Source of the DNA: Caldisericota bacterium
Lineage (GTDB): Bacteria; Caldisericota; Caldisericia; Caldisericales; Caldisericaceae
Direction of reading: 5' to 3'
NCBI GenBank assembly: GCA_034717215.1
Contig: JAYELD010000078.1
Span: forward strand, 1-37,713
DNA: 37,713 bases
In this document: positions 28,014 through 37,681 of the stretch, piece by piece
Position numbering within the stretch: position 1 is the stretch's first letter
Layout of the letters: each line of letters begins with the position of its first letter
Made by a program: the position numbers and the translations under genes
Notes under the pieces: model-generated
The model's input: only the letters and a program-made list of their open reading frames with translations
The model's database searches: none
What the model was told of the DNA's origin: nothing

Positions 28014-29695
28014 ATTATCGGTACCTCTTTTTTTAGTTTATCAATGAGAATAAATGCAACTAAGCTGGCAAGTGCAAGTAAAGCCCCCATAGCTGACGCT
28101 ATTCCAAAGTGTCTTCCTGAAAGAAACCTGAACAGTGCGATAGGCATTGTTGTAAAGGATGGTTTATATAACATATATGCGGCACCAAATTCTCCCATTG
28201 AAATTGCAAAAGAAAATACTGCAGAAGCTATCAAAGCAGGACGAATCAAATTCAGATCCACTGAGAAGAATGCTTTCAATCTGCTCATGCCTAAACTTTC
28301 AGCGACAAATACATATGAAGCAGATGTTGTTTCTATCATGGGGAGGAGAGCGCGTACTGTAAATGGCAAAGCAATAAGAGTATGAGCTATCGGTATAATT
28401 ATCCAGCTATTAAGCAAAGCAGGGTGCCCTTGAAAAGAGATGATGTAAGAGAGAGCAATTGTAATAGGTGAAATCGCAAGAGGCAACATAAATAAAGTAA
28501 GAAGAATGTTTTTACCAATAAACTTACCTCGTAACCCATATGTAATAAGTAAAGCAAATATAATTGAAAAAATTACTGTTATGCCCGCAAATATAAGGCT
28601 ATTTCCGATTACATGGATAGGAAGAACTCCGGTAATATAATTATATTTGCTGCTCATAAGCCCTGCAAAATTCGATAAAGTAAACGCACCGGTTAAGGGA
28701 TTGCGAAAAGCAGAAATAAATATCACGGTGATTGGTGCAATGATGAGCATCACTACAAAAATAAGATAAGTCAAAGACAATGATAAAGTTGTTTTATTTT
28801 TAACAATATTCTTCTTTTTAGCTATGCCTCTTTTCAAAGTGCCTTTTTTTATTAAGTTACCACTCCAAAGATACACATACATAAACAATAAAGAAAATAC
28901 TCCTTGAAACAAAGCAAGTGCACTACCCATCTTAAAATCAGAAAACATATTATAGTACGTATATATTGAAACTTCGATCGTTGCAAAACGGGCTCCACCT
29001 ATGGTGAGAATGATGACAAAACTTAAGAAACAAAACACAAAAACAAGAGAAAAACTTGCAATAATTGCCGGAAGAAGTAAAGGAATAATAACTTTAGTAA
29101 AAACAGCAAATCGGGAAGAACCCATGCTTTCTGCAGCAAATTTATATTCTTCCGATATTCCTTCCCAGTCAGCTCCAATAATCCGTACTACAATTGGAAA
29201 ATTATAAAAAACATGCACTAATATAATTCCCGTAAATGAATACAGAAGCGAAATTGGATGGCTTAAATGAAACACTCCCATCAATATTTGATTGACAAAT
29301 CCGCTGGTGCCAAATAAGGTAATAAAACCAAGAGCAACAAGAACGGAAGGAAGCACAAAAGGAACAGTCGTAAGAGAAACAAGAAACCCTTTGCCCTTGA
29401 AATCGTAATGAGAGATAATATACGCACCAGGAAAACCTATAAGCAATGTAAAAAGTGCGCTAATAAAAGCTTCTTTGAACGTAAAAGATAACACTTTTAA
29501 CGTATAGGGCCTTGTAAATATTGTGTAAAAATTATCCAAAGTAAACTTATTAGATTCTGAAAAAAATGCAGTCTTTGTAATATTAAATAAAGGCAGATAA
29601 AAAAATATGGTAAGAAAAACAATAGGTAAACAGAATTTTAATATTCTATTTAATTGAACTCCCTCAAAACTTTTTCTATGTAATGCACTTTTCAT
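28010..29695 (-). CDS. thiP: ABC transporter permease, two fused domains (ThiP-like)
   Basis: A 561-residue polytopic protein with two binding-protein-dependent transport domains in tandem (roughly 60-260 and 340-555), each with about six helices and an EAA-type loop (EYKFAAESMGSSRFAVF and YVFVAESLGMSRLKAFF). This is the ThiP/FbpB layout. With the ThiQ- and ThiB-like proteins it should form a complete thiamine importer. The ATG at 29695 lies 8 nt after GGAGG, which is itself part of the TPP riboswitch 3' strand. Confidence 0.9.
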   Translation of the reverse strand: MKSALHRKSFEGVQLNRILKFCLPIVFLTIFFYLPLFNITKTAFFSESNKFTLDNFYTIFTRPYTLKVLSFTFKEAFISALFTLLIGFPGAYIISHYDFKGKGFLVSLTTVPFVLPSVLVALGFITLFGTSGFVNQILMGVFHLSHPISLLYSFTGIILVHVFYNFPIVVRIIGADWEGISEEYKFAAESMGSSRFAVFTKVIIPLLLPAIIASFSLVFVFCFLSFVIILTIGGARFATIEVSIYTYYNMFSDFKMGSALALFQGVFSLLFMYVYLWSGNLIKKGTLKRGIAKKKNIVKNKTTLSLSLTYLIFVVMLIIAPITVIFISAFRNPLTGAFTLSNFAGLMSSKYNYITGVLPIHVIGNSLIFAGITVIFSIIFALLITYGLRGKFIGKNILLTLFMLPLAISPITIALSYIISFQGHPALLNSWIIIPIAHTLIALPFTVRALLPMIETTSASYVFVAESLGMSRLKAFFSVDLNLIRPALIASAVFSFAISMGEFGAAYMLYKPSFTTMPIALFRFLSGRHFGIASAMGALLALASLVAFILIDKLKKEVPII

Positions 29696-29698
29696 AAC

Positions 29699-29788
29699 GC
29701 TTCCCTCCGGTAGGATTACCTACATCAGGTTCAATGGGTTGAAGTCAAACTTCTCTCAGCCTACTCAAACAATCTTTTCGGCACCCCA
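29699..29788 (-). promoter_or_regulatory. TPP (THI-box) riboswitch
   Basis: The minus strand carries the THI-box core in order: GGGGTGCC (29787-29780), GGCTGAGA, a short GAAG...CTTC hairpin, AACCCATTGAACCTGATG, and a closing part reading CCTACCGGAGGGAAGC. The GGAGG in that closing part is also the SD of the permease gene, so TPP binding can hide it directly with no separate expression platform. This supports a thiamine role for the operon. Confidence 0.95.
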
Positions 29789-29801
29789 AACTATTTTTTA
29801 A

Positions 29802-31206: not shown

Positions 31207-31288
31207 ACTCAACAACCTCAAAAATCATTATAAAACTCCAAAAATAATTTGGAAATATTTATGTTAAGGATAAAATATAAAAAGAGGG
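31207..31288 (+). repeat. Copy 1 of a region-4 sigma gene tail with embedded promoter
   Basis: This stretch is strongly similar to 36715-36797: ACTCAACAACCTCAAAAA, then a run ending AATAATTTGGAAATATTT. In copy 2 it is the coding tail of the region-4 sigma-like gene; here the frame is decayed and no gene body precedes it. It is a remnant of a duplicated locus. Confidence 0.75.
31249..31276 (+). promoter_or_regulatory. Promoter of the stalk-domain gene (31299-32360)
   Basis: TTGGAA (31249-31254), 16-nt spacer, TAAAAT (31271-31276), inside the repeated segment; the same layout is seen at 36759-36786. Confidence 0.55.
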
Positions 31289-31298
31289 GAGGTGCAAA

Positions 31299-32360
31299 AT
31301 GAAAAAAATCTTGGTTGGATTAATCGTCTTTACGATAATGGTATTATCTATTTCGCCTGCTGTTCTCTTTCAAACAAACATTGCTCAAGCAGATTCTTCT
31401 ACCTGTCATTGGGAGGAGATAAATAATGGTTTGTATGGCAGAACGGTTTACTCTCTTACTATTGACTCAAACAATACTATTTATGCAGGAACAAGAGGCG
31501 GTGCTTTTAAATCCATCGATGGTGCAAACTGGGCAGAAATAAACAACGGGCTGACAAATACATATATTAACTCTCTTGTTATTGACTCAAACAATAATGC
31601 TTATGCGGGAACAAGAGGTGGTGGTGTTTTTAAATGTATCTGCTCTCCTTCCAGCCCTCCAAATCTTCAGACAACTGTTTCCTCTTCTTCTATTACTCTC
31701 ACATGGTTTGCTTCTACTCAGAGTACATACCCCATTGCAGGTTATGCAATCTACAAAGGAACAACTTCAAGTAATGAGTTAGCAACGCCAATAGGGATAG
31801 TAGATATTTCTACAACAATCTATGCAGATACAAATGTTATTTCAGGTACAACGTATTACTACTATGTAAAAGCATTTGATAATCAATCGCCTGCAAATTA
31901 CTCTGAACCTTCTAATGAAGTTAGTGCAGTATACAAAAAACTTGCTCCAAAAATTATTATCACGCTTTGGCCTGACAATCCAACGATGACTGTAAACGGT
32001 GTTTCTCAGGGAATAGATCCTGGCAGAGGTACAAAACCTGTTATCATTCCTGAGTGGTCAAGAACGGTTGTACCCATTAGAGTAATAGTTGAAGCTCTTG
32101 GTGGAACAATTGAATGGGATGGAACAGAAAGAAAGGTAACAATCAATTTTAACCATACAACAATAGAACTATGGATAGATAGTCCAAAAGCAAGAATAAA
32201 CGGCAATGAAGTATACATTGACCCAAACAATCATGGTGTGAAACCAATTATAATAAATGATAGAACGATGTTGCCTCTGAGATTTGTTGCAGAATCTCTT
32301 GGCTGTGATGTAGGCTGGGACAACGATACAAGGACAATAACGATTACATACAGGGGATAA
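31299..32360 (+). CDS. Secreted protein: beta-propeller-type repeats, FN3, stalk domain
   Basis: 353 residues with a signal peptide (cleavage after about residue 31, AQA). Two tandem ~43-residue repeats follow (WEEINNGL...SLTIDSNNTIYAGTRGG and WAEINNGL...SLVIDSNNNAYAGTRGG), like blades of ligand-binding propeller proteins. A fibronectin type III domain is at about 120-208 and a copper amine oxidase N-terminal-like stalk domain at 215-353 (TVVPIRVIVEALGG, RTMLPLRFVAESLGC, TRTITITY). It probably sits in or on the cell envelope; no catalytic motif is visible. GGGGAGGTG precedes the ATG. A remnant of a paralogue lies at 37578-37655. Confidence 0.85.
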   Translation: MKKILVGLIVFTIMVLSISPAVLFQTNIAQADSSTCHWEEINNGLYGRTVYSLTIDSNNTIYAGTRGGAFKSIDGANWAEINNGLTNTYINSLVIDSNNNAYAGTRGGGVFKCICSPSSPPNLQTTVSSSSITLTWFASTQSTYPIAGYAIYKGTTSSNELATPIGIVDISTTIYADTNVISGTTYYYYVKAFDNQSPANYSEPSNEVSAVYKKLAPKIIITLWPDNPTMTVNGVSQGIDPGRGTKPVIIPEWSRTVVPIRVIVEALGGTIEWDGTERKVTINFNHTTIELWIDSPKARINGNEVYIDPNNHGVKPIIINDRTMLPLRFVAESLGCDVGWDNDTRTITITYRG

Positions 32361-32476
32361 ATTTTGAAGATAAAAATAGAACTTGACAAAAAGGTTTTAA
32401 GTATTACTACATAACTGAATTAAGTATTTTTCATTAAAGGAGGCAAGAAATAAAAAATTTGAACAGGGATGTAGCA

Positions 32477-32556
32477 TTGGGAAAGAAGAATATCCAAAGT
32501 TTAGCTATAGCACCAAATTGGAAGGATATTCGCAGTTAACTGCGAATATAACCAAG
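32477..32556 (+). repeat. Intergenic element A with a 24-bp perfect palindrome
   Basis: It contains the perfect palindrome 32526-32549 (half-site ATATTCGCAGTT). The element resembles 36833-36902 (shared TTGGGA, AGTTT, CACCAAA, GGATAT and the hairpin position). An orphan SD AAAGGAGGC at about 32440 precedes ATA instead of ATG. The rest of 32361-32630 holds a TTGACA at 32383-32388 without a clear -10. Confidence 0.5.
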
Positions 32557-32630: not shown

Positions 32631-35456
32631 ATGACAAATAAAATTAAAAAAATTTTGATAATAACTTTAGTTATATGTTTCTGTTTAATTTCTTTAGTTC
32701 ATGTATCTGAAACGGCCCAGAGTGGTAATCAGGAGGAGGTCATGGAACAGGTACTGAAGGATGCAGCTGACCAGCTAGCGGGTCAGCGCGAAATAGGTTG
32801 GTACGGCAGCACATATGTCCACCGCGAGTGGTGGTGTGAAGGGGGGTGCTGTCACCAGGGTGTGCAGGAAATTAAGGGAGACTCATTTTGGGAGTATAAG
32901 CTGGAGATATGCCGATGGAGTACAGAGAGCGAAGCAGCAGGTTACCTCGAGACCCAATTAGAGACGGGTTATCGCTCCACAAGCTTTCATGGATATCCTG
33001 TAGGGATATGTACAATGTTTCAACAGGAGCAGGGGCTATCTGCTCTTATATGGCAGTCTGGCCGGTTTACATTTTATGTTGATGCCACTAACAAACCTGT
33101 AAAACTTGGTGCGGAAATACTGTATTCCCGCGCAGTGGGGCGTGGCCTCATAGCTAGGGGAGGTGGGACTACACAAGATTCGGATGGAGATGGAGTTTCA
33201 GACGACATAGACCAGTGCCCCAATACGTCTGCTGGAGTTGCTGTGGATGAAAATGGCTGCGCTATTGTTAAAGAGATGAGTTTAACTGTTTCCACAGACA
33301 AGAAAGCTTATTCTGCTGGGGAAACAATAATCATCCATGGTAGTGTCTCGGATACACAGGGTGAGTTGACTGGTGCTACCGTAGCCATTGACGTCAACGG
33401 CACAAAGCTTACCCCAACTACCGATTCATCGGGAAAGTATAGATGTGAATATCCGCTTCCTGATAACATTTCTCAGGGCATATATACGGTTAAGGCTACG
33501 GCATCTAAATCCGACTATCCCAACACAAGCAAGAACACGAGCTTTGCCGTGGGAGAAATTAGCATTCAGTTAGAAGAAAACCACGTGACCGGGGAACCCT
33601 TTATAGGTATTACTGCAGATGGAGTTAGTTCTCTTCGCATTTCCATTTCCCTGCCGGGATGTAGTGATGTGAAGGTTGGCAGACTAGATGTTGGCGAGCT
33701 TAAGGGAGATGCGATAAACTTCCTGGGCAGTATTACACTGGATTCTGCCGGAATGGCTGAGATTACATATTATCCGCCAGATTATCTCACAAAGAACCAG
33801 CTTACCCAGAACTTAGATGTGCATCAATCAAATTCCAGGACATGGGTCGCTGAAGTTCCACTAACTTTCACCTACACAGATGCCAGCGAGCAGGAAGGGA
33901 AGATAGAGGGGAAGATCCTAGTTTGCCGTCCTCCGGTAATGCTGGTGCATGGATTTCTCGGCGCTTCAACTACATGGGGAAAGATGTCCACTTACTTGCG
34001 CGGGGAGAAGTTCGATCCCTATATGGGTAATTATGGTGCCACAGGCCAGTCTATTGAAGGATTATCACTGATATTAAAGAATGACATTCGAAAGCAACAG
34101 ATTGACTATGCCAACTCCAACATCAAGATGGCGAAGGTAGATGTGGTAGGGCATAGCATGGGAGGTTTAATTGCCCGCTACTATACTCATGGCCTCACGG
34201 ATTATCCCGAGGATGTGAGAAAGCTGATAATGGTTGGTACGCCGAATCATGGTGTTTCCTGGACCAAAAAGGTGATAGGAAATGTTGCTACAGGATGGTA
34301 CGAGACGCACAAGATCCCTGCAGGGCAACTTCATTCCCAGAGTTCGTTTATGAAAACACTCAATAGCGGTGAAAAAACCGGAGCTCAGCTCAATTCTAAT
34401 ATACAATATGGTAATATATATGGATATTCTGATGACTGGGTAGTCAGTGCGGCATCAGCTTATCTGAATGGCGTAGACAGTGTACTTGAATTTGATGTAA
34501 AGCATTCTCCTGATATCCCCGGTGTCCCGGATGTAGCCATCACCGAGTATCTTAAAACATGGGATCGGGTAAAAAGCTGGCTTACCCAGGACATTTACAA
34601 GCCGCCATTGAAAGGTTCGCATGCAGAAGTCTATAAATATGAGGGGGATGTTTACCTAGATGAGACTAAACTGGCTTCCTCCCCCACGAAGATTGATTCC
34701 TGGCAGAGCTTGCGAACCGGTCAGGACTCAAAAGCGATTGTACACCTAACGATAAACGACTCTCCTTGGGGAATCATATTCTTAGACCCGGATAGTGAGA
34801 TATTCCTAGGTTACTTATCTCCCCAACTGGTAGAAGTCCGTCTCTGGAAAGGGAGTGCCACATTCAGAAGCAGGAAGGATGGTCACTTTACCGTGCCCGT
34901 AAATATTAAGAGATCCGAAGATGGGGAATGGTGGAAGTATAGCCCTCAGGCCGTAGTTACCGGACAAGGTACAGAATTTGCTATTACTGCCGGAGAAAAT
35001 ATAGAGGTTCATTGCCTGGAAGGTGAACTTGTTATGGACACTCCTAACACTACTGAAGAAGGAACTATCCTATCCGCTAACGATTCTGTGGCTGTTAAAG
35101 GGAAAACAGTAACTGCAATCAGTCCTGCCTCAAAAGATAACTTCTGGTGGTCAACTGAAGAGGACCATTTCTTGGATTCTACGCCAGGAAGTGAATGGCT
35201 TGATAAATTCAAGGATTTTATAGACAATCCCTTTATTAACTACATTTCAGTGGAAGTCCGTAAAATAACAATAGCTGCAGTAGAAAAATTAAAAAGTATG
35301 TGTCCAATATTATCAGACAATATATATCAAATGTTGCCAGATAATATACGCCAGATGTTGCCAGAAAGTATATCCCGGAATTTACTATACATCATTGTGG
35401 GATTTTTTGTGTTGATATTATTCTTGTTAATTAAAATATTAAGAGGCAGAAGATAG
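32631..35456 (+). CDS. Membrane-anchored secreted lipase-like alpha/beta hydrolase with FecR-like domain
   Basis: A 941-residue extracytoplasmic protein. Signal peptide 1-29; a Cys-rich N-terminal domain; a thrombospondin-3-like calcium repeat at 183-205 (DSDGDGVSDDIDQCPNTSAG); an Ig-like domain near 216-308 (KKAYSAGETIIIHGSV); a lipase/PGAP1-type alpha/beta hydrolase near 434-650 with oxyanion HGFLG and nucleophile S509 in GHSMGG, likely Asp602 and His625; a FecR-like beta domain near 690-810 (VTGQGTEFAI...CLEGELVM); and a C-terminal helix at 918-937 with a basic end. GC is clearly higher than in the housekeeping genes, which suggests transfer. GAAAGGAGG precedes the ATG. Substrate unknown. 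Confidence 0.85.
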   Translation: MTNKIKKILIITLVICFCLISLVHVSETAQSGNQEEVMEQVLKDAADQLAGQREIGWYGSTYVHREWWCEGGCCHQGVQEIKGDSFWEYKLEICRWSTESEAAGYLETQLETGYRSTSFHGYPVGICTMFQQEQGLSALIWQSGRFTFYVDATNKPVKLGAEILYSRAVGRGLIARGGGTTQDSDGDGVSDDIDQCPNTSAGVAVDENGCAIVKEMSLTVSTDKKAYSAGETIIIHGSVSDTQGELTGATVAIDVNGTKLTPTTDSSGKYRCEYPLPDNISQGIYTVKATASKSDYPNTSKNTSFAVGEISIQLEENHVTGEPFIGITADGVSSLRISISLPGCSDVKVGRLDVGELKGDAINFLGSITLDSAGMAEITYYPPDYLTKNQLTQNLDVHQSNSRTWVAEVPLTFTYTDASEQEGKIEGKILVCRPPVMLVHGFLGASTTWGKMSTYLRGEKFDPYMGNYGATGQSIEGLSLILKNDIRKQQIDYANSNIKMAKVDVVGHSMGGLIARYYTHGLTDYPEDVRKLIMVGTPNHGVSWTKKVIGNVATGWYETHKIPAGQLHSQSSFMKTLNSGEKTGAQLNSNIQYGNIYGYSDDWVVSAASAYLNGVDSVLEFDVKHSPDIPGVPDVAITEYLKTWDRVKSWLTQDIYKPPLKGSHAEVYKYEGDVYLDETKLASSPTKIDSWQSLRTGQDSKAIVHLTINDSPWGIIFLDPDSEIFLGYLSPQLVEVRLWKGSATFRSRKDGHFTVPVNIKRSEDGEWWKYSPQAVVTGQGTEFAITAGENIEVHCLEGELVMDTPNTTEEGTILSANDSVAVKGKTVTAISPASKDNFWWSTEEDHFLDSTPGSEWLDKFKDFIDNPFINYISVEVRKITIAAVEKLKSMCPILSDNIYQMLPDNIRQMLPESISRNLLYIIVGFFVLILFLLIKILRGRR

Positions 35457-35653: not shown

Positions 35654-35681
35654 TTGACAAAATTAATTTTTTTGCCATAAT
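35654..35681 (+). promoter_or_regulatory. Promoter of the leader RNA / split-sigma cassette
   Basis: TTGACA (35654-35659), 16-nt spacer, CATAAT (35676-35681). Transcription would start near 35688 and run into the structured leader. Confidence 0.55.
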
Positions 35682-35729
35682 ATTTTTTATAAAATATAGA
35701 AAAATTATGCATTAAAGGTGAGGATTTAA

Positions 35730-35820
35730 GCTTCAACTTGCTCCAACCTTTCCGTACGGATAAAATGGATGCTAAAGCGAGGGATATCCCTGTGCTTTAA
35801 GTTGAAGCGCGGGTTTTTTT
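35730..35820 (+). ncRNA. Candidate structured RNA (three-way junction) ending in a terminator
   Basis: P1: GCTTCAACTT (35730-35739) pairs perfectly with AAGTTGAAGC (35799-35808), followed by GCGGG and seven T. Inside are P2, the palindrome TCCGTACGGA (35751-35760), and P3, AAAGC/GCTTT (35774-35778, 35794-35798) around AGGGATATCCCT; P3 abuts P1 directly. I recognise no known riboswitch class. It may be an independent small RNA or the sensing part of an attenuator. Confidence 0.55.
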
Positions 35821-35833
35821 ATTTTAAGGAGTT

Positions 35834-35879
35834 GAAGTCGAAAGACTTCCGCGATGATTTGTGCCCTATTGCGATCGCG
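35834..35879 (+). ncRNA. Two further leader hairpins
   Basis: GAAGTC-GAAA-GACTTC (35834-35849) is a 6-bp stem with a GNRA tetraloop. It is followed at once by CGCGAT (35850-35855) pairing with ATCGCG (35874-35879) across 18 nt. Both are part of the leader before the gene at 35963. Confidence 0.45.
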
Positions 35880-35904
35880 TTAAATAATCGGCTAAAACGG
35901 CATC

Positions 35905-35940
35905 AGTCCGCTATAGTCGATTCGATATAGTGGGCTTTTA
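35905..35940 (+). terminator. Terminator-like hairpin before the split-sigma cassette
   Basis: An 11-bp stem (35905-35915 with 35926-35936, two G-T pairs) and a 10-nt loop, followed by TTTATTTAT. It stands about 10 nt before the SD of the gene at 35963, as expected for leader attenuation. Confidence 0.55.
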
Positions 35941-35962
35941 TTTATAAAAAAGGAGGAAAATT

Positions 35963-36235
35963 ATGGCAAGGAAGCAACAAAGCAGTCTATTTTATCTGTA
36001 TCGCAACGCCTTGAGAGTAGGAAAGCTCAAGGCGTTAATAAATTCTTTAAACAAAAATCATAAGGAGGTAACAATGGAAGAAATGGAAACTATATTAAAG
36101 GAGTGTGAAAACATTATCTCTGCGCTTAATAAGGAGAGGCTCATCCTGGTATCCGACGCAAAGGCAATGAAGAAAGCATCGGTCAAAAGAACGGAAGAAA
36201 AACTGTTCCAAAAGGATAACGACCTTGATGCTTGA
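35963..36235 (+). CDS. Hypothetical 90-residue protein at the head of the split-sigma cassette
   Basis: I do not recognise a family. The ATG at 35963 has AAAGGAGG upstream; the N-terminal part is basic (FYLYRNALRVGKLKALINSLNKNHKEV) and the C-terminal part helical and charged. A second in-frame ATG at 36074 has its own perfect AAGGAGGT, so a 53-residue product (MEEMETILKECENIIS...) may be made separately or instead. A strong hairpin (36005-36036) lies between the two starts. The gene overlaps the start of the next, sigma region-2-like gene. It could be an anti-sigma or accessory subunit; that is a guess from position. Confidence 0.6.
   Translation: MARKQQSSLFYLYRNALRVGKLKALINSLNKNHKEVTMEEMETILKECENIISALNKERLILVSDAKAMKKASVKRTEEKLFQKDNDLDA
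36005..36036 (+). promoter_or_regulatory. Hairpin between two nested starts
   Basis: AACGCCTTGAG (36005-36015) and CTCAAGGCGTT (36026-36036) pair perfectly over 11 bp with a 10-nt loop. It is inside the coding region, 25 nt before the SD of the internal ATG at 36074. Confidence 0.5.
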
Positions 36236-36515
36236 AGAACTGTACTTGGGAGAAAAGGGCAGGGCAAAAAAGCTTGCCATTCGCTACGCTAAAATGTTCA
36301 ATACAGAGCCGAAAGATTTGTTTCAGGAAGGAGCACTCGCCCTTTCAAAAGTTTATGCAAGATACGCCTGCAAACTCACGGACGAGGAACTTCTCAAAGT
36401 GTCCCACGCGTTGATAAACAGAAAGATGTACAAGTACGCCCGGAATGAATACAAGCATAAAATGAGCCTCAGGTGTTATGCGGAAGACGATAAGGAGGAG
36501 CAAATTGAGTTTTAA
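36228..36515 (+). CDS. Sigma-70 region-2-like protein (half of a split sigma factor)
   Basis: 95 residues from the ATG at 36228 (a TTG one codon earlier is less likely), overlapping the previous gene; AAGGAT lies upstream. RAKKLAIRYAKMFNTEPKDLFQEGALALSKVYARY resembles sigma region 2.1-2.2 (DLxQEGxLxLxxA), and ALINRKMYKYARNEYKHK resembles region 2.3-2.4, which melts and reads the -10. No region 3 or 4 follows in this frame; a region-4-like gene comes 24 nt later. This layout recalls the two-protein SigO-RsoA sigma factor of Bacillus. The fold call is by motif only; a phage- or ICE-type regulator is the alternative. GC is higher than in the core genes. Confidence 0.6.
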   Translation: MLEELYLGEKGRAKKLAIRYAKMFNTEPKDLFQEGALALSKVYARYACKLTDEELLKVSHALINRKMYKYARNEYKHKMSLRCYAEDDKEEQIEF

Positions 36516-36539
36516 TAAAGAAAGGGAGGCGATGCAGCG

Positions 36540-36785
36540 ATGGAAACGCTAAATCAGGAACACATTAAAAAACTTTTAAATGGAGGAATGAGCAAACTCG
36601 CAAAGAAGGACTATAAAATCCTTTACGAATTATATTTCAACAACACCTCGGTACATTAACTTTCAAAAAAGCTTGGCGTCGACCGCTCCACACTCAGATA
36701 CCGAAAAGGCAAGGCACTCAACAACCTCAAAAAATTATTACAAAACTCCCAGAATAATTTGGAAATATTTGTAAAGAGGATATAA
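36540..36785 (+). pseudogene. Sigma-70 region-4-like gene interrupted by an in-frame TAA
   Basis: Starting at the ATG at 36540 (GGGAGG upstream), the frame reads METLNQEHIKKLLNGG...KKDYKILYELYFNNTSVH, then TAA at 36657-36659, then continues LSKKLGVDRSTLRYRKGKALNNLKKLL to a stop at 36785. The second part is a region-4 helix-turn-helix and the first part its leading helices. CAA (Gln) to TAA would explain the break, and the frame is otherwise intact, so it is a recent loss or a regulated stop. The tail carries the promoter for the next unit and is duplicated at 31207-31288. Confidence 0.7.
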
Positions 36786-36797
36786 TAAAAAGGGGAA
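36715..36797 (+). repeat. Copy 2 of the region-4 tail with embedded promoter
   Basis: Closely similar to 31207-31288. Here it still encodes the C-terminus of the region-4-like protein. Confidence 0.75.
36759..36786 (+). promoter_or_regulatory. Promoter embedded in the region-4 gene tail
   Basis: TTGGAA (36759-36764), 16-nt spacer, TATAAT (36781-36786), overlapping the stop codon of the region-4-like gene. It would drive element B and the gene at 37015. Confidence 0.6.
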
Positions 36798-37014: not shown

Positions 37015-37452
37015 ATGGCAAATACTAAACATGCCAGTGATCGAGTAACAAAATCGATACGTTTGATTGCGCGAATTTGGAGTATTCCTGTTATTGTATA
37101 TGCTTTAGTGCTGGTCGTCGGCTATACGGTAAATTGGATAACAACCGGAGTAGCAGATCCGTATGCTGTCGAAAATTATCCTTTTATTGAAAATCTGTCT
37201 CCAATTTTCATGCTTCTAGCAATTCTGGGATTAGGTATAGCATGGCGTAAGGAGAAATTAGGAGGAATAATTAATCTTTTTTTCTGCTGCCTTGCAATTA
37301 TACCAATATTCCTAATTCGTTGGCCAATTACTCAAAACATCTACAACATCATCCCTTTCATTTTAATTATAATAGTAGCTTTTCCTGGAATATTATTCCT
37401 TATATATTGGTGGCGATCGAAAAAGAGGATAATTCCTCAAAACAGCGCCTAA
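37015..37452 (+). CDS. Small four-helix membrane protein (cassette-like gene)
   Basis: 145 residues with a basic N-terminus and four hydrophobic segments (about 20-40, 62-77, 83-100 and 110-132), ending in a basic tail (WWRSKKR). The segment order and conserved WRKEKLGGIINL loop resemble small uncharacterised membrane proteins that I associate with Chloroflexi-type gene cassettes; I cannot name a function. GAGGAGGG precedes the ATG. The stop codon lies inside the first arm of an attC-like inverted repeat, the usual position in integron cassettes. It is placed between the region-4 promoter and a broken stalk-domain gene. Confidence 0.75.
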   Translation: MANTKHASDRVTKSIRLIARIWSIPVIVYALVLVVGYTVNWITTGVADPYAVENYPFIENLSPIFMLLAILGLGIAWRKEKLGGIINLFFCCLAIIPIFLIRWPITQNIYNIIPFILIIIVAFPGILFLIYWWRSKKRIIPQNSA

Positions 37453-37537: not shown

Positions 37538-37577
37538 CTTGAAATAACAGTTTTGAGTTAAGTTATTTGATAATACA

Positions 37578-37655
37578 TTTATAACAGAATCTCTTGGCTA
37601 TGAAGTCGGTTGGAATCCAGATACAAGGACAATAACGATAACATACGGCGGATAA
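37578..37655 (+). pseudogene. C-terminal remnant of a stalk-domain gene
   Basis: 26 codons without a start read FITESLGYEVGWN, then PDTRTITITYGG and stop, matching the end of the intact protein at 31299-32360 (FVAESLGCDVGWDNDTRTITITY). The rest of the gene is gone; the attC-like site ends 40 nt upstream. It is what remains of a paralogue replaced by the 37015-37452 gene. Confidence 0.8.
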
Positions 37656-37681
37656 ATAGATTAAAAATAACTTTTTAAATT

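Follow-up and report, generated by a model that had tools for sequence, protein, structure and literature searches.

The window analysed here, which is the whole of contig C78 (37,713 nt) and part of a 1.49 Mb draft genome of a Caldisericota bacterium, carries at its right end, in order on the plus strand, a promoter candidate, a structured leader, ORF1, the genes R2 and R4 separated by 24 nt, a DUF7670 gene and a fragment of a stalk-domain gene (Table 1). A region-2-like gene followed by a region-4-like gene, behind a small ORF and a structured leader, had been proposed for this locus in an earlier note, and the arrangement was borne out by the coordinates and by the profiles described below. 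The extra first gene of that proposal, ORF1, is present in the window but has no convincing family or homologue in family searches and in a search of the phylum Caldisericota, so that it is not a general part of the split-sigma system. One flanking gene is also present in a related genome (G021), there without the cassette, which points to a lineage-specific gain or loss of the cassette.

Table 1. Features of the sigma-factor cassette, its leader and the associated repeats, in window positions.
Feature	Position	Strand	Remarks
Second copy of dispersed promoter-like element	31207-31281	+	84% identity; before stalk-domain gene 31299-32360
Sigma-70-type promoter candidate of leader transcript	35654-35683	+	TTGACA, 16-18 nt, CATAAT/TAATAT; consensus scan
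Element A, SAM-II-like aptamer candidate	35714-35785	+	motif order, P1/P2, conserved in G016
Intrinsic terminator of element A	35789-35820	+	terminator scan
Element B, SAM-II (SAM_alpha) riboswitch aptamer	35841-35916	+	Rfam RF00521
Hairpin resembling a terminator, with T-rich tail, 3′ of element B	35906-35945	+	arms 35906-35915/35926-35935; folding, direct reading
ORF1	35963-36235	+	90 aa; AAGGAGG upstream; orphan
R2, sigma region 2 protein	36228-36515	+	95 aa; DLFQEG motif
R4, sigma region 4 protein (helix-turn-helix)	36540-36785	+	in-frame TAA at 36657-36659
Dispersed promoter-like element over R4 3′ end	36715-36794	+	TTGGAA 36759, TATAAT 36786
DUF7670 multi-helix membrane-type protein	37015-37452	+	directly 3′ of cassette; might be a membrane regulator of the pair
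Stalk-domain gene 3′-end fragment	37577-37657	+	81% identity to 32282-32362

Taken by itself, R2 of the window gave weak family matches and no clear Pfam match; its assignment was settled by its relatives: out of nine, eight matched TIGR02937 and six Pfam Sigma70_r2, the best at 2e-6. Sigma factors made up 16 of the 17 PDB matches of an R2 profile, at modest E-values (best 0.0017), and the AlphaFold model of R2 (pLDDT 91) had sigma region 2 structures as its Foldseek neighbours, with weak E-values of 0.4-1 and a probability of up to 0.94. R4, with its in-frame stop read through, matched Sigma70_r4 at 2.5e-4, and its profile found PDB structures of sigma factors with E-values of 1e-6 to 1e-7 (including 3.7e-7 and 4.8e-7). 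The model of R4 with the stop read as Gln (pLDDT 82) was placed by Foldseek next to sigma region 4, with a probability of 1.00 and TM-scores of 0.7-0.8. For both proteins the best profile matches were ECF or SigH-like families. The sigma identity of R2 and R4 stands well above chance. The earlier note had allowed for neither protein resembling a sigma factor; the profile searches it proposed found sigma profiles with both, directly in the case of R4 and mainly through the relatives in that of R2.

The conservation of the pair was followed with an R2 profile over 54 Caldisericota genomes, matches of 65 bits or more being taken as split-type loci. Thirteen such loci were found in 10 of the genomes, every one in the window's own family, and R4 adjoined R2 in all 12 loci whose downstream side lies on the contig. 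The sigma2 gene was 5′ of the sigma4 gene throughout, and no R2-R4 fusion occurred in these loci. Loci scoring 71 bits or more with an R4 profile likewise numbered 13; the remaining matches, at 44 bits or less, were for the most part conventional sigma factors encoded by open frames of 150-200 aa. The two genes mostly overlap, in a frame relation that varies by locus (+1, -1 or 0), and R4 has start codons of its own. Homologous loci were seen in Caldisericum sp. CG2_30_36_11 and Caldiserica bacterium UBA4770; a profile search of genome contigs gave matches in Caldisericota only, with an R2 alignment narrow enough that a wider spread is possible. The dN/dS values by NG86 were 0.09-0.17 for R2 and 0.13-0.34 for R4, and those by YN00, where computable, were higher for the divergent comparisons with the window (0.50 and 0.71); both halves are under purifying selection.

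The genes around the pair differ between lineages. In Caldisericum it leads a run with genes for a PHP-domain protein and a PLP-dependent enzyme, with an M20 peptidase gene opposite, and at one locus (G008:C83) it lies within an island that holds a DNA methyltransferase and a helicase-like gene. Two copies in G018 (L023 and L024), 95% identical over 627 nt and located at different chromosomal places, suggest recent duplication or mobility, and there are genomes of the window's genus without R2. Searches of plasmid and phage collections gave no DNA or protein match to the cassette and thus no evidence for R2 as a phage or plasmid gene. The sole IMG/VR match (L021) was discarded, being a full-length sigma-like protein that is not split.

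The region-4-like gene of the window has the expected sigma region 4 content but is not an intact open reading frame, a fact overlooked in the earlier note: a TAA stop stands at codon 40, which is a Gln codon in the closest relative. Three R2 genes at other loci carry stops too; in two (L027 in G008:C10 and L030 in G012:C72) the stop is a TAG in place of the Gln codon of the DLFQEG motif. The presence of stops in several copies argues that decay of individual copies is common. Unless its stop reflects a sequence error or strain variation, the R4 allele of the window has probably lost its function or is being lost. For the stops in L027, L030 and the window R4, decay, errors or readthrough may all fit. 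An alternative genetic code is not needed, since the stops at Gln positions in three loci are explained by C-to-T decay and the other genes of the window use normal stops.

Transcription of the leader could start at the sigma-70-type candidate upstream, which agrees with the consensus at 10-11 of 12 positions; as shuffles of the region contain 4.0 sites on average, it is the position and context that carry the weight of this promoter call. The presence of an RNA leader, as proposed earlier, was confirmed by element B, which scored 43.5 bits against an Rfam gathering cut-off of 36, together with a second aptamer-like element, A, upstream of it. Element B, in which P1 is formed by 35850-35855/35874-35879 and P2 by 35862-35865/35899-35902 with GCTAAA at 35891-35896, is by this match a SAM-II riboswitch and is predicted to bind SAM. 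The hairpin that follows it was absent from a strict terminator scan, and the test for an antiterminator of element B was not significant.

Element A has the P1 and P2 pseudoknot and the GATTTA/TTGC/GCTAAA core, as judged from two sequences only. Its P1 (35714-35719/35746-35751) has 6 bp and its P2 (35731-35734/35779-35782) 4 bp, and its core motifs follow the SAM-II order, with GATTTA at 35723, TTGC, TAAA and GCTAAA at 35771-35776. It is conserved in one relative, G016, where P2 reads CUUC/GAAG and in the window CUUC/GAGG. The core pattern was absent from reversed controls, and P1 together with P2 was attained in 0.5% of shuffles. Neither this element nor its G016 relative matched any Rfam family, and element A was not found by a covariance model (R1) trained on element B plus five further SAM-II-type elements from the phylum; we therefore call it SAM-II-like, its ligand being unproven. 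An alternative pairing with its intrinsic terminator can be read in the sequence: a strand of the aptamer loop (35730-35739) is complementary to the 3′ arm of the terminator (35799-35808), giving a duplex of -15.5 kcal/mol that none of 2000 shuffles equalled (0.1% for G016). In folding calculations the terminator formed when the loop strand was held unpaired, a wiring that is predicted to act as an OFF switch.

The survey of similar loci proposed in the earlier note showed that R2-R4 pairs recur, but no convincing homologue of ORF1 was found in the phylum and the other R2-R4 loci searched had no detectable SAM-II leader; the link between riboswitch and sigma genes is seen in this genome only. 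SAM-II-type elements do occur elsewhere in the phylum. One, below the Rfam cut-off, lies upstream of a gene of G025 named metK from its sequence, and in G023 and G037, of another genus, tandem SAM-II-type cores, each with a terminator-like hairpin, precede a 245-aa gene; antiterminators tested for these tandem aptamers were not significant. The 245-aa gene itself (L035 in G037, L036 in G023) had no Pfam match. The SAM-II class was first described in alphaproteobacteria (PMC1273637), and the Caldisericota leaders widen its range. Tandem SAM-II elements with terminators have already been described in 44 cases (PMC9481103). The leader of the window resembles these, and tandem SAM-II/SAM-V arrangements, in its two consecutive SAM-II-type aptamers with a terminator after each; unlike in the tandem SAM-II cases, its first element fails the SAM-II models and what lies downstream is a sigma pair in place of genes for sulfur metabolism.

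For the pair itself the closest known analogue is the Bacillus subtilis two-subunit sigma factor SigO-RsoA, also named YvrI-YvrHa (PMC8103513, PMC10028694). This parallel, drawn in the earlier note, holds in so far as sigma2 and sigma4 domains reside on separate proteins encoded by neighbouring genes, a likeness by design, but the order is reversed, with sigma2 first here and sigma4 first in yvrI-yvrHa. R4, of about 60-105 aa, is also far smaller than SigO with its 22.5 kDa (PMC10141391), the phylum is another one, a riboswitch leader replaces the known control, and NCBIfam gave no match specific for RsoA or SigO. With ECF and SigH-like sigma factors the pair shares the restriction to sigma2 and sigma4 domains, which are there on one polypeptide and here in two genes. 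In phage T4, sigma2-like and sigma4-like functions are likewise split over two proteins, gp55 and gp33; gp33 is without sigma4-style DNA binding, whereas R4 keeps the helix-turn-helix. To our knowledge, no characterised cellular sigma factor other than SigO-RsoA is split between two proteins. An apparently independent second example, conserved in another phylum and with several intact copies, would open the questions of why the sigma2 and sigma4 domains are separated and how general such AND-gate control is.

The reading that we favour, at a probability of roughly 60%, is that R2 and R4 form a two-subunit sigma factor of one Caldisericota family, made in this genome when SAM is low, and that the copy in the window is probably decaying. 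R2 would bind core polymerase and the -10 region, R4 would engage the flap and the -35 region, and neither would direct transcription without the other. The ORF1-R2-R4 operon would be transcribed through the leader, passing the SAM-II-like aptamer and then the SAM-II riboswitch, each with its terminator-like hairpin. With plentiful SAM, sensed by element B and perhaps by element A, transcription would stop in the leader; with scarce SAM, read-through would yield the sigma halves, which could then join core polymerase and transcribe their regulon. The R4 stop, the riboswitch link confined to one genome, the failure of element A in the models and the result for the element B antiterminator count against this reading. 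If it is true, a single RNA step, the SAM-II riboswitch before a sigma operon, would couple a regulon to methionine/SAM status. More tentatively, and we would sooner doubt than believe it, R2-R4 could be a conserved ECF-like two-subunit sigma factor of the Caldisericota's own, unrelated in origin to SigO-RsoA and placed here under a pseudo-cooperative pair of SAM-sensing terminators, so that the riboswitch drives the whole sigma regulon and element A represents a new subclass of SAM-II-like aptamers.

We would give even odds to the cassette of the window being a dead remnant of a once mobile or duplicated R2-R4, the intact relatives being real two-subunit sigma factors. The in-frame TAA in R4, the stops in R2 of other copies, the same-genus genomes without R2 and the cassette-free flanking gene of G021 all fit such a history, but R2 and the leader are intact and a single C-to-T change may be recent, polymorphic or an error. 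It seems unlikely that the leader formerly belonged to another gene and was placed by mosaic rearrangement, with no regulatory meaning before the sigma genes: although the arrangement was seen once and the region is mosaic (stalk fragment, dispersed element, orphan ORF1) and lineage-specific, promoter, aptamers, terminators, ribosome site and ORF1 follow each other on one strand in working order and spacing, and no gene lies between leader and ORF1.

Even less probable, in our judgement, is that R2 and R4 are independent regulators, for instance polymerase-binding modulators or a helix-turn-helix regulator. The R2-R4 interaction is indeed a prediction, and R2 is a short protein that lacks a clear Pfam match when taken alone; strict adjacency, overlapping genes and complementary sigma2 and sigma4 content in every resolvable locus speak for two sigma subunits instead. 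The overlap of the genes at most loci and the stops at Gln positions in three of them could also suggest that programmed frameshifting or readthrough of a stop yields one sigma protein containing both halves, a possibility to which we attach hardly any credence. The frame relation differs from locus to locus, which argues against a frameshift fusion and led us to rule it out; moreover, R4 can start on its own and the genes of the window do not overlap but are spaced apart.

The R4 tail, as the earlier note had observed, is repeated before a surface-protein gene: the repeat upstream of the stalk-domain gene is real (62 nt, 82% identity), but belongs to a dispersed promoter-like element that exists in many copies and has the pattern TTGGAA-ATATTTGTAAAG-TATAAT. 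Eleven of the 12 exact sites lay in the window's genus and none occurred in a reversed control. The element precedes restriction, RadC-like, PAS-domain, antirepressor-like and other genes, and it is also upstream of the stalk-gene orthologue of G019, a genome in which R2 was not found. Its position before unrelated genes, and in a genome lacking R2, gives no sign of split-sigma control, and the suggestion that such cassettes control secreted stalk-domain proteins was not supported. With its conserved spacer (TTTGGAAATATTTGTAAAG...TAAAATA), the element was seen upstream of many accessory genes of the window's genus (L078-L096), some copies coming after remnants of R4-like sequence.

Further features were observed upstream of the cassette. 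A TPP riboswitch (69.8 bits) lies at 29685-29798 on the minus strand. A large secreted protein that combines Ig-like with alpha/beta-hydrolase (lipase-like) domains is encoded at 32631-35456; its gene has a GC content of 0.43-0.51 against about 0.34 in the surroundings and a relative in G021 that is 86% identical. Upstream of this gene, at 32529-32552, stands the perfect palindrome ATATTCGCAGTTAACTGCGAATAT, and a similar sequence is carried by both G019 and G021.
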